A model generated the notes under the pieces. The model was not told the origin of the DNA and did no database searches. It was given only the letters and a program-made list of their open reading frames with translations. Both the position numbers and the translations under genes were made by a program. 34,452 nucleotides of DNA from a virus: positions 1-34,452 of IMG/VR virus record IMGVR_UViG_3300009329_000015; one strand, given 5' to 3'. Below, in pieces: positions 9,006-12,124 of this stretch. Every line of letters starts with the position of its first letter. Position 1 is the stretch's first letter.

Positions 9006-9665
9006 CTACTTGTACATCTTAGTTTCAAGTGCCATAGCAGGAAAGTTAAACAATAACTCAGACTCTCTGGGCTGATTAGTTACAAACTTTCTTACTTGGT
9101 TCATCATGAAACTAGCGGCCATATCAGCACAATAGGGGGTTCCTTTGCGGCTACAAGGCTCAGAGTCTCCTTCTTCATCTGTATACCATGTATCAAAATA
9201 CTTTTGGAGGGTATTTTTGGTAAACATATAAGCTTGGAATTGCTCTGAACCCATACGACCATCAATTGTGAATAAAGGTGGGTTCGCCAGTAAAGTCTCT
9301 GCGATGTTTTTTCTAGACTCCATTGAATCCACACCCATGCACACAATTGATTTTTCCTGTAGGCTTTTGGCATAAGGATCTGACTCAAAGCGTTTATCAA
9401 AGACAGTTACTTTAGCCATGGGATGTATAGCATGAATTTTCTCCTTGGTTGCAATAACTTTCTTTTTGCCTATATCGTCAGTGACGAAGTTTTGAACACC
9501 TACATTTTCTACTCCTACTTCATCATCGTCATATAGCACTATTTCAGGAGCACTACTTTTGGCTAATTGCTCAACCAAATGTGACCCGATAGCACCACAT
9601 CCTATTACTTGAAACTGATATCCATCCAATTTATATATTTCAGAAAATCGTTGGCTTATATTCAT
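9006..9665 (-). CDS. E1/ThiF-like ubiquitin-like-protein activating enzyme
   Basis: A 219-residue single Rossmann domain of the ThiF/MoeB/E1 superfamily. The nucleotide loop is VIGCGAIGS (20-28), followed by YDDDEV (45-50) and the ENVGVQNF segment (53-60), which in the family positions ATP and dimer contacts. CMGVDS (109-114) is the family's conserved C-x-D type strand. Near the C-terminus C171 and C179 (EPCSRKGTPYC) are candidates for the thioester-forming cysteine. Such enzymes adenylate the C-terminal glycine of a beta-grasp protein. The usual Arg of the N-x-x-R motif is Val here. Its ATG overlaps the JAB gene stop as ATGA, a strong sign of co-production. A cofactor-sulfur role like ThiF is the alternative. 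Confidence 0.87.
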   Translation of the reverse strand: MNISQRFSEIYKLDGYQFQVIGCGAIGSHLVEQLAKSSAPEIVLYDDDEVGVENVGVQNFVTDDIGKKKVIATKEKIHAIHPMAKVTVFDKRFESDPYAKSLQEKSIVCMGVDSMESRKNIAETLLANPPLFTIDGRMGSEQFQAYMFTKNTLQKYFDTWYTDEEGDSEPCSRKGTPYCADMAASFMMNQVRKFVTNQPRESELLFNFPAMALETKMYK

Positions 9666-10498
9666 TTAGTATATTCGGCAACAAGGTTATATGTGGATGG
9701 TTTACCTTTCTCAAGATAAAGCATTTCAGGCATTTCTTTTAACAGAGGTACAGTGAATTTGACATACCCAACATATGCTTTATTGACATCTTGGAGAAGC
9801 TTCCGAATTTCGGAATACGTCAATTTGCCATTGAGGTATTTCAATGCAGCTTCATCAACTTCAGTCCAAGCTTCAATCTGCTTGATTGCGGTTAAATCAG
9901 ATTTACCAGGAAGTAATGTTGCGTTAGTCTGGGGATCAGTTGTCTTGTTAGAACGTCCTGTATTATAGTTCTTATAATAATTCTTTCCATAATATTTACC
10001 ATAGCTATAGGTTTTCTTAGTACACAACTTCTTAACCTCTGCATCAACATCAAACTCATCAGTAATGATGTTAAGCTTTGGATTTGCTACAACGCCTTTA
10101 AAGTCAGCTATACGCAATTCCATAACGTATTCGCCTTCGACGTTAATAACAAGGAAAGCTCCCCAATCACTACCTTCCATGAACTCTTTCATGCATTTAT
10201 CATCGGTCCCAGACATGAAAGCAGCCATAGTTCCATGCGAATGCCACCACATAAAACGTACGTCTTTTCCATGCTTTTTAAACATAAGACCGCAGTATTT
10301 CGACAATGCATCTGAATCGAGATCACAGTTGCCGCCTGATACTTCTTGCTTTATAATAGAAGGATCAAGAATTTGCCAATCTCCTTCTTCGTCTTGCTTT
10401 AATATTGCCATACCGCCAATTTCGGATGCGAGCTGAACATTGGCGGATTTTGCATATGACAACATTTTATTCCAATCATCTTGGTAAATGTAGAACAT
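9662..10498 (-). CDS. JAMM/JAB metalloprotease (deubiquitinase-like)
   Basis: The N-terminal ~110 residues contain a complete JAMM zinc site: E26 in ASEIGG, H86-S-H88 in WWHSHG, then S96 and D99 with the exact H-S-H-x7-S-x2-D spacing. Family members cleave isopeptide or peptide bonds after the C-terminal Gly of ubiquitin-like proteins. A Tyr/Lys/Asn-rich linker at about 160-185 leads to a C-terminal helical domain of ~100 residues I do not recognise, perhaps for substrate binding. It overlaps the E1-like gene by 4 bases and follows the E2-like gene by 10. Since the linked beta-grasp protein already ends in GG, deconjugation is more likely than precursor processing (inference). Confidence 0.9.
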   Translation of the reverse strand: MFYIYQDDWNKMLSYAKSANVQLASEIGGMAILKQDEEGDWQILDPSIIKQEVSGGNCDLDSDALSKYCGLMFKKHGKDVRFMWWHSHGTMAAFMSGTDDKCMKEFMEGSDWGAFLVINVEGEYVMELRIADFKGVVANPKLNIITDEFDVDAEVKKLCTKKTYSYGKYYGKNYYKNYNTGRSNKTTDPQTNATLLPGKSDLTAIKQIEAWTEVDEAALKYLNGKLTYSEIRKLLQDVNKAYVGYVKFTVPLLKEMPEMLYLEKGKPSTYNLVAEYTK

Positions 10499-10508
10499 TA
10501 TGTCTCCT

Positions 10509-11858
10509 TTATGTTGAGGTGTCTGAAGAAATTGTGACAGAATCTGTTGATGAACCTACAATAAACGTAGCAGAAGTAGCTACTATGGGCTCTATTTCAG
10601 GTAGTGGAGGCATAGCTACGACACTGGGCCTCTGTTGTTGTCTACTTCTCCTTTCCACTTCTTCCTTTGTAAGTTTTTTTAGATCTAGTTTCTCAGAAGG
10701 CCAGTTTTCGTATTTAAATTCATGACCTGGGCCAAGCACAGAACATCTATACTCATCTATGCGTTTCCGAAGGTCTTCAATTAGAGCCTCTGTTTCATCA
10801 TCAAGGATGAAATCACCTCCATATCTCAATATATCATTAGGAGACAATGGAACTGGCCTACCGTTAACTAGTGCATTATGTCTGCATGTTTTTCTCAGTA
10901 AACATTCAATCTTATCACAATCCTCTTTCTTTGGATTGTACTGCTGTGCACAGTAATCTGGGTTAGCTCCATAAGCTTGGGCTATAGTACCGAAGCTCTT
11001 AGGTACGCCCATCCAAAAATCCGATATAGCCAAGAATGGTGTTGCATCTCTGGAGAAAGTCTCAGCCCACATTCTTAGATTCCCAAATAACGATATGAGA
11101 TCTAATTCTTTTATGCTAACATGCATGGCTGAAGAATATCCAGAGAAGCATATCGAATTATTATTAGCAAATGGATGATGATTATGCCTGCCTTCTACAA
11201 GCAATCCATCTGTGATAGGTTTTTCTCCATTCATATTCACATACCGATTTAAATCTATCAGAAATCCAATTTTTATCGGATTATCTAATGCTAAATTAAA
11301 CTCAGGCTTTTTCGAGTTTCTAGTATGATATACTTGCATGACTATATCTTTGATTGTAGAGAACAATTCAAGATAAGTATGCTCGCTTTTAATCACAAAG
11401 TTTAATTCAGGTACGATATTTAAAGTTTTACAAATAGGCTTTGCACGTTTCAACTCAACAGAGAATCGTTCTACAAGCTCATTAGCCATTCCCAATTTTT
11501 CTTTGGGTATGGTGTGCATACGCCCTCTGGAGGTCTTAATTAGAAGATCCATAAGCTGAGCTAAATATACTTTTTTACGATTTGCATTAGAGTTACTGCA
11601 ATGGTAAGCACCTAATGCACGTATTACCCTATGATTTTCTCTGTGCATTGATAAATCAACAGCAGGGATACTAAGCCACCTAGTTAAAGCTTGTTTGGTA
11701 GCTAATCTGAGATTTCCTTTTGGTGTAAACCATAATTTTGGAAATTCTGGATATTCTTTTTGTAAATGCTTTAAATAATCCTTGTACTCCTCCTCAGCTC
11801 TATCATCTGTTTTTTTAGTAAATTGTTCTAATCCAGTCTCAATCTTTACTCGATACAT
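10509..11858 (-). CDS. Putative E2-like conjugating protein with Cys cluster (449 aa)
   Basis: I do not recognise the full-length family. Residues ~195-270 resemble an E2/UEV core: strand IKIGFLIDLNRY, strand GLLVEG, then HHPFANNNSICFSG (227-240), which parallels the His-Pro...ICL pattern ahead of the E2 catalytic Cys, with C237 at that place. A helix follows (SIKELDLISLFGNLRMWAE). Residues 303-325 hold four cysteines spaced x10, x4 and x5, a likely zinc or Fe-S site. The N-terminal ~185 residues are helical, and the C-terminal ~40 are Pro/Ser/Thr-rich and probably disordered. Position between the beta-grasp gene and the JAB gene is the other support. Starts behind AAAGGAGAG. Confidence 0.45.
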   Translation of the reverse strand: MYRVKIETGLEQFTKKTDDRAEEEYKDYLKHLQKEYPEFPKLWFTPKGNLRLATKQALTRWLSIPAVDLSMHRENHRVIRALGAYHCSNSNANRKKVYLAQLMDLLIKTSRGRMHTIPKEKLGMANELVERFSVELKRAKPICKTLNIVPELNFVIKSEHTYLELFSTIKDIVMQVYHTRNSKKPEFNLALDNPIKIGFLIDLNRYVNMNGEKPITDGLLVEGRHNHHPFANNNSICFSGYSSAMHVSIKELDLISLFGNLRMWAETFSRDATPFLAISDFWMGVPKSFGTIAQAYGANPDYCAQQYNPKKEDCDKIECLLRKTCRHNALVNGRPVPLSPNDILRYGGDFILDDETEALIEDLRKRIDEYRCSVLGPGHEFKYENWPSEKLDLKKLTKEEVERRSRQQQRPSVVAMPPLPEIEPIVATSATFIVGSSTDSVTISSDTST

Positions 11859-11877
11859 ATAATCTCTCCTTTAAAGT

Positions 11878-11903
11878 AGGGGAAGGCTGCTAAACCTTCC
11901 CCT
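11878..11903 (-). terminator. Strong hairpin after the beta-grasp gene
   Basis: A perfect 9-bp stem, AGGGGAAGG with CCTTCCCCT, with an 8-base loop, is followed on the leftward strand by ACTTTAAAGGAG, which includes the next ribosome site. It lies 21 bases past the beta-grasp stop codon. It could cause partial termination or block 3' decay so that the modifier is made in excess of the enzymes downstream. The U-run is weak. Confidence 0.55.
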
Positions 11904-11923
11904 AGAAACCAGGTTAAAAGGTT

Positions 11924-12124
11924 TTAACCACCGACTTTATTTTTCTTAATAACGGCAACAGCGTCGTCGGCCTTCAGACGCTTAGCATTGGTAGCAGGCT
12001 CGTTATTAACAGTAATGGACGCTGAAGCCGGAATATCCAGCTCTTCGCGCAGGCAACGCACAGTTTTGGCTGCTACGTTCTTTTCTTTAAAGGCAGTGCC
12101 TTCATTCAACAGGTATATACGCAT
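11924..12124 (-). CDS. Ubiquitin-like beta-grasp modifier ending in Gly-Gly
   Basis: A 66-residue protein with the layout of ThiS/MoaD-type beta-grasp proteins: strand MRIYLLN, a second strand near FKEKNV, helix AAKTVRCLREELD, strand ASITVNN, then ADDAVAVIKKNKVGG with Gly-Gly as the last two residues. The end corresponds to the D-x-V...GG tail of ThiS. A free GG terminus is what an E1-like enzyme adenylates. The gene overlaps the upstream gene by 23 bases and has GGAG 8 bases before the ATG. Its GC content and codon choice (CTG, CGT/CGC, CCG) differ from the A/T-rich neighbours, suggesting high expression or a separate origin. It acts either as a protein modifier or as a sulfur carrier; the E2-like and JAB neighbours favour the first. 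Confidence 0.8.
   Translation of the reverse strand: MRIYLLNEGTAFKEKNVAAKTVRCLREELDIPASASITVNNEPATNAKRLKADDAVAVIKKNKVGG

Follow-up and report, generated by a model that had tools for sequence, protein, structure and literature searches.

A Putative Phage-Encoded Ubiquitin-Like Conjugation Cassette in a Replication Operon

Organization of the Cassette Locus

The phage DNA described here, hereafter the window, is the entire 34,452-base IMG/VR record IMGVR_UViG_3300009329_000015. Its minus strand carries, at positions 9006-12124, four genes predicted to encode, in this order, a ubiquitin-like (Ubl) modifier, an E2-like conjugating protein, a JAMM/JAB metalloprotease, and an E1/ThiF-fold activating enzyme (Table 1). 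The cassette, which resembles the ubiquitin-tagging machinery of human cells, forms a single operon with genes for a Sak4-like recombinase and a primase-helicase, and its JAB and E1 genes overlap by 4 bases (9662-9665). Since terminase, portal, and major head proteins are encoded on the same contig, the window is a genuine tailed phage rather than stray bacterial DNA. The original prediction had placed four open reading frames (ORFs) at these positions and on this strand, including the 4-base overlap, and had described the set as phage-borne and situated in a replication operon; all of this stands. When the window was left out of the hidden Markov models (HMMs) of the four families, these matched, among 150 ORFs of this strand, the four cassette genes and nothing else (Ubl 1.6e-19, E2 5e-14, JAB 1e-59, E1 8e-71).

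The Four Cassette Proteins

The modifier terminates in KKNKVGG, and thus has no tail to trim. It is recognized by no Pfam or NCBIfam model, while Pfam ThiS matches 13 of 23 relatives (best 3e-5). The AlphaFold model of the window Ubl, with a predicted local distance difference test (pLDDT) score of 87.7, found its best fold matches in ThiS, Mth1743, MoaD, TtuB, ubiquitin, SAMP, and ISG15 (Z 7-8.8 for ThiS, MoaD, TtuB, SAMP, and ubiquitin), and the CsUb-Rpn11 complex was among its Foldseek matches. The GG pair is kept in 29/29 non-redundant modifiers; it is terminal in five and followed by 1-103 extra residues in the rest, so that most modifiers need trimming, whereas the window Ubl does not.

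The metalloprotease contains the signature H86-S-H88-x7-S96-x2-D99, together with E26. Its match to Pfam Prok-JAB is sub-threshold (E 2.4e-4), and the profile of the JAB family is closest to Caldiarchaeum Rpn11 (CsRpn11), an archaeal deubiquitinase (1.3e-7). Because the window Ubl has no residues after GG, deconjugation appears a likelier job for the window JAB than precursor trimming.

The 449-residue protein carries the motif HHPFANNNSIC, comprising the HP pair at 228-229 and the candidate catalytic cysteine C237, and is further marked by W264 and P274. In 33 sequences, P229, C237, P274, and C303 are invariant. The last of these opens a four-cysteine module, C303-x10-C314-x4-C319-x5-C325, located after the UBC fold, in which 30-31 of the 33 retain C314, C319, and C325. 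The module may bind an iron-sulfur cluster, a reading whose sole ferredoxin match was non-significant (E 1.1), or else zinc. In the AlphaFold model (pLDDT 70.5), residues ~117-298 were aligned by VIA-align to UBC, UEV, UFC1, and RWD structures (Z 5.6-7.3, root-mean-square deviation 3.1-4.7), which account for nearly all of the top 50 structures aligned. The case for the E2 fold is made by the uniformity of this list, the HP/C/W/P pattern, and the operon setting, and not by Z alone. No Pfam or NCBIfam model recognizes the window protein or covers its family, which has an additional four-cysteine module.

The activating enzyme matches Pfam ThiF (E 2.8e-21), and its profile ranks UBA5 (9e-16), MccB, and UBA6 above ThiF and MoeB. 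The conserved residues are D46, D48, N54, K69, D113, and C171, the last being the candidate catalytic cysteine, present in 44/44 sequences. ThiF, too, has such a cysteine, which by itself cannot separate conjugation from sulfur transfer. The window enzyme stands alone at 219 amino acids (aa), and has no rhodanese domain. At one related locus (L011), JAB and E1 share one open frame. The original prediction of a beta-grasp protein with a terminal GG, an E2-like motif, a complete JAMM signature, and an E1/ThiF-like enzyme is thus borne out, and the structure predictions and fold searches that it proposed returned a ThiS/ubiquitin-type fold for the modifier and an E2/UBC fold for the 449-residue protein.

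Relatives in Other Phages and Genomes

A search with the E1 profile yielded 144 viral loci, 80 of them retained, and 16 loci in genomes. Iterated HMMs for the four families were applied to these loci, some of which are near copies of one another. Of the 37 viral loci whose upstream DNA is long enough, 33 have the order Ubl-E2-JAB-E1, and the last genes often overlap. Two of the remaining four, L077 and L078, have an upstream ORF with a KKGG-NLN or KKGG-CLN terminus, which looks like a diverged Ubl. Profiles were required, as the 449-aa and JAB proteins matched no phage records when used directly as tblastn queries. With the window E1 as query, tblastn returned 79 phage records, mostly of Bacteroides and Flavobacterium phages, and with a crAss E1, 82 records.

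In these records the E1, filed as “thiamine biosynthesis protein”, is preceded by a gene labelled “metalloprotease domain”, a hypothetical protein of ~400 aa, and a beta-grasp-like protein that extends C-terminally beyond KSG. In the cultured gut crAss-like phage crAss001, the cassette consists of gp79, gp78, gp77, and gp76, and is flanked by primase gp80 and uracil-DNA glycosylase gp74, with a Holliday junction resolvase and an exonuclease also among its neighbours. The crAss-type E2 carries a Y-M/L-H-S-H...C-x-G motif and lacks the four-cysteine module of the window type, and the Ubls of the two types gave a weak partial match in hhalign (probability 27%, 30 columns). The version carried by Crassvirales and Flavobacterium phages and, in a form that lacks JAB, by a Xanthomonas jumbo phage is distinct from the window type. 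In crAss-like phage cr106_1 (L004:1728-2931), an HNH endonuclease gene splits the Ubl domain, which ends in KIKSGKF, from the stretch that in relatives forms its C-terminal extension.

The Xanthomonas jumbo phage PhiXhv-12 encodes a 140-aa protein ending in ASGG, an 892-aa E2-like protein, and an E1, between DNA ligase and topoisomerases; no Prok-JAB match was obtained across its whole genome. The 892-aa protein (L106:2739-5919) contains HPHM...CLG, and its N- and C-terminal parts are very cysteine-rich. Judged from this distribution, the cassette is a widespread phage family and not a one-off.

Related genes were also observed in other settings. On a Cytobacillus plasmid (L112:1-4831), E2-like, JAB-like, and ThiF E1 genes are clustered with dnaN and a Rad52-family gene, which, by gene content, is a further link to replication and recombination. 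Two Saccharibacteria chromosomes (L096:4428-6938 and L101:5140-7603) carry E2-like, JAB, and E1 genes related to the phage set, the E2-like proteins having apparent N-terminal membrane segments. Contigs binned as Clostridium and Spirochaetia metagenome-assembled genomes (L089, L093) contain crAss-type E1s, with the whole cassette in L089, and are probably misbinned phage.

Replication Neighbourhood and Exchange with DUF932

A fixed order of genes follows E1: a Sak4-like AAA gene (53 loci), or in its place an ERF-type or similar gene, the conserved slot-2 protein, for which no Pfam or PDB match was found, and the primase-helicase (71/80 loci). When loci were anchored on the helicase, 57 had at least 4 kb of upstream DNA, and the cassette was present in 27 of them. 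A DUF932 gene (Pfam 3.5e-49 for one gene) occupies the cassette region in 19 of the 30 cassette-less loci versus 0 of the 27 cassette loci. For the contrast between cassette and DUF932, Fisher's P of 9e-8 is overstated, as it ignores non-independence and the helicase tree needs only ~3-6 changes (~6 for the cassette, ~3 for DUF932). In loci that include L116, L118, L126, L150, L159, L168, and L171, the DUF932 gene lies upstream of the ssDNA-annealing gene. As far as gene content can tell, the cassette is a modular accessory, and cassette and DUF932 are alternative modules that are stable within clades and rarely exchanged.

Table 1. Cassette genes and adjoining features of the window (HMM, hidden Markov model; MFE, minimum free energy; SSB, single-stranded DNA-binding protein)
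Feature	Position	Strand	Evidence
Ubl modifier, 66 aa	11924..12124	-	AlphaFold and fold search; Pfam ThiS in relatives; leave-out HMM
E2-like conjugating protein, 449 aa	10509..11858	-	Conservation; AlphaFold and VIA-align; leave-out HMM
JAMM/JAB metalloprotease, 278 aa	9662..10498	-	Prok-JAB; Rpn11 profile match; leave-out HMM
E1/ThiF-fold activating enzyme, 219 aa	9006..9665	-	ThiF; UBA5 profile match; conserved C171; leave-out HMM
12-bp hairpin, Ubl-E2 intergenic	11877..11904	-	MFE -23.7 kcal/mol; z -4.8 versus mononucleotide shuffles
Sak4-like AAA ssDNA-annealing/recombination protein, slot 1 after E1	8009..8869	-	PHROG 124 2.6e-24; AAA_24 1.1e-19
Slot-2 protein, SSB-like by position only	7444..8007	-	Slot-2 cluster in 57 loci
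Primase-DnaB-type helicase, slot 3	5705..7444	-	PHROG 19 4.4e-19; PDB replicative helicases 2.6e-15

The strong hairpin in the Ubl-E2 intergenic gap might serve expression control, giving a higher Ubl:E2 ratio. The same gap is also over-folded in L010, L021, L032, L049, and L072, and such folding is absent in many other loci. Upstream of the cassette (12610-14159, minus strand), each of four small ORFs has a short RSG[LF] motif close to its N-terminus; they are possibly diverged paralogues, their similarity being non-significant. Amid the structural genes, a protein at 29877-31280 on the plus strand matches a glycosyltransferase PHROG (1.4e-8).

Comparison with Known Systems

A close parallel is the PRTRC cassette (assigned to class 6d in Iyer et al. 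2006; PMC1779556), which likewise combines a single Ubl, an E2-like protein, a JAB, and an E1, is carried by mobile elements beside replication/partition genes, and keeps the same relative gene order (C-F-B-A-ThiF, as seen on a Manganitrophus plasmid). Despite this order, the window proteins do not pass the PRTRC models, and the cassette is therefore not filed as PRTRC: the window E1 scored 41 bits against a PRTRC_ThiF cut-off of 144.75, PRTRC_A reached 13.6 against 101.8, and B and C gave no match. No protein F or ParB was recognized among the window neighbours scanned, which did not include every small ORF. The phage E2, unlike that of PRTRC, retains the HP before the cysteine and has the four-cysteine module. 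The PF14460 profile matched nothing, controls included, and this search is uninformative. The E1 tree separates a window-type phage group (99/94) from a crAss-type group (98/96), and both stand apart from the PRTRC E1s, which are more distant than the separate chromosomal relatives from Saccharibacteria, Methylomirabilota, Rubrobacter, and Calditrichota. The window E1 had no plasmid match at 1e-3, and PRTRC was reached via a Methylomirabilota E1.

Bil (BilABCD) also has modifier, E2, JAB, and E1 as separate genes; however, BilA contains two Ub-like domains, whereas the window modifier is a single 66-aa beta-grasp, and Bil is a bacterial defence system, whereas the window cassette lies in a phage replication operon. 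The cyclic oligonucleotide-based antiphage signalling system (CBASS) Cap2/Cap3, 6A-MBL, and Bub systems share the E1 fold (PADLOC E1-E2 1.2e-14; PDB Cap2 1e-10, BubCD 1.5e-7) and, for Cap3, a JAB-type protease. Their E1 is usually fused to E2 or located beside a CD-NTase or other effector, whereas the window E1 stands alone; neither a CD-NTase among the scanned window neighbours nor an E2-E1 fusion, as in CBASS type II, was found. The lambda tail TAPI/TAPK proteins pair a phage Ub-like domain with a JAB peptidase (JAB/NlpC; PMC1779556), but belong to a tail operon without E1 or E2. The Caldiarchaeum Ub/E1/E2/Rpn11 operon, source of the best match of the JAB profile, is cellular and includes a small RING E3 (PMC5654768), and none was recognized beside the window cassette. 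On the strength of these comparisons, the cassette is a variant of the class 6d/PRTRC-like kind, and not a member of PRTRC or Bil.

Proposed Function and Alternatives

It is highly probable, on sequence and structural grounds, that the cassette performs conjugation chemistry. The fuller proposal, a phage-encoded Ubl cascade acting on phage DNA replication and recombination proteins, is probable on balance, and its component concerning the target, suggested by a genomic position repeated in three phage types, is an even call. E1 would adenylate the C-terminal glycine of the modifier and load the modifier onto C171, after which it would be transferred to C237 of the E2-fold protein. The E2, whose four-cysteine module may take the role of an E3, would attach the modifier to a target protein, and the JAMM protease would strip it off again, and would also trim the precursor in relatives with residues after GG. 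The likeliest target would be the Sak4/ERF annealing protein, the slot-2 protein, the primase-helicase, or a host factor that these engage. The cascade is favoured by the observation that the only phage version without a JAB match genome-wide, that of PhiXhv-12, has a modifier with GG as its very last residues. Reversible tagging of these phage proteins, comparable to the control of eukaryotic PCNA by ubiquitin and SUMO, with DUF932 as a functional substitute, is a tentative reading that may well not hold.

Several results weigh against this proposal. Genomic position is weak evidence for the target, because replication genes cluster in phages anyway. No cassette was detected in 30/57 relatives with the same helicase, so the cassette is dispensable for that replication system, and an obligatory role in the operon is rejected. 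With Foldseek alone, the E2 model gave nothing significant (best E 0.45, to an unrelated protein), and a VIA-align Z of ~7 lies within the range reachable by unrelated models. The comparison of crAss-type with window-type E2 by hhalign (P 0.3) gave no statistical link, the best segment being the HP...C.G motif.

The cassette might instead serve counter-defence or host takeover, with the phage modifying or de-modifying host proteins, such as components of Bil-, CBASS-, or PRTRC-type defence, or replication and transcription factors. Conjugation systems already known from bacteria take part in defence against phages (Cap2/CBASS, PMC10097602; Bil, cited in PMC11354881), and the modularity of the cassette, present in 27/57 helicase-related phages and with DUF932 instead in 19 of the other 30, would fit such a role. 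It is nonetheless unlikely: the full forward cascade is kept, while stripping would need JAB alone, and several lineages have the cassette linked to the replication operon, the ~6 state changes of the cassette on the helicase tree implying a turnover that appears slower than that of typical anti-defence genes.

Superinfection exclusion or virion modification, in which the Ubl would be placed on competing or own virion proteins, is improbable. Bil reportedly attaches its modifier to tail proteins. The same four activities are present in bacterial Bil (PMC11354881), but the window cassette lies in the replication operon and not beside lysogeny, morphogenesis, or moron genes. The text of the crAss001 virion structure paper mentions neither gp76-gp79 nor ThiF, which is no proof of their absence from virions.

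A sulfur-carrier pathway, in which a Ubl thiocarboxylate made by the ThiF-like enzyme would feed a cofactor, tRNA, or modified nucleotide, with JAB trimming the carrier, is very improbable: the modifier model is nearest to ThiS, MoaD, and TtuB, the crAss E1s carry a thiamine biosynthesis annotation, and ThiF and MoeB are E1 homologues, but the E1 lacks a rhodanese domain, JAB resembles Rpn11, and, what appears to count most, the E2-fold protein, unneeded for sulfur transfer, has an invariant cysteine in every window-type cassette examined, and no sulfurtransferase, thiolation, or cofactor genes were found among the scanned window proteins and neighbours.

Significance

Iyer et al. 2006 (PMC1779556) described bacterial classes 6a-6e and the lambda-type tail Ubl/JAB pair, and the passages covered contain no phage E1-E2 cascade. 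ThiF is unmentioned in the crAssphage papers of the literature searched, as are ubiquitin and JAB in a crAss genomics paper (PMC7886860). A literature search, which did not reach preprints and most subscription papers, found no paper on a phage-encoded cascade; because preprints lay outside it, priority cannot be asserted.

Most of what is known of Ubl conjugation in bacteria concerns cellular pathways and anti-phage defence, and a full cascade borne by phages would reverse this picture. The E2 proteins would add a new family without a Pfam model, and the cassettes may include evolutionary relatives of the eukaryotic ubiquitin machinery. The exchange with the cassette suggests a function for DUF932, and the cultured crAss001 and Flavobacterium phages offer tractable systems in which to learn what viruses may tag, and why.

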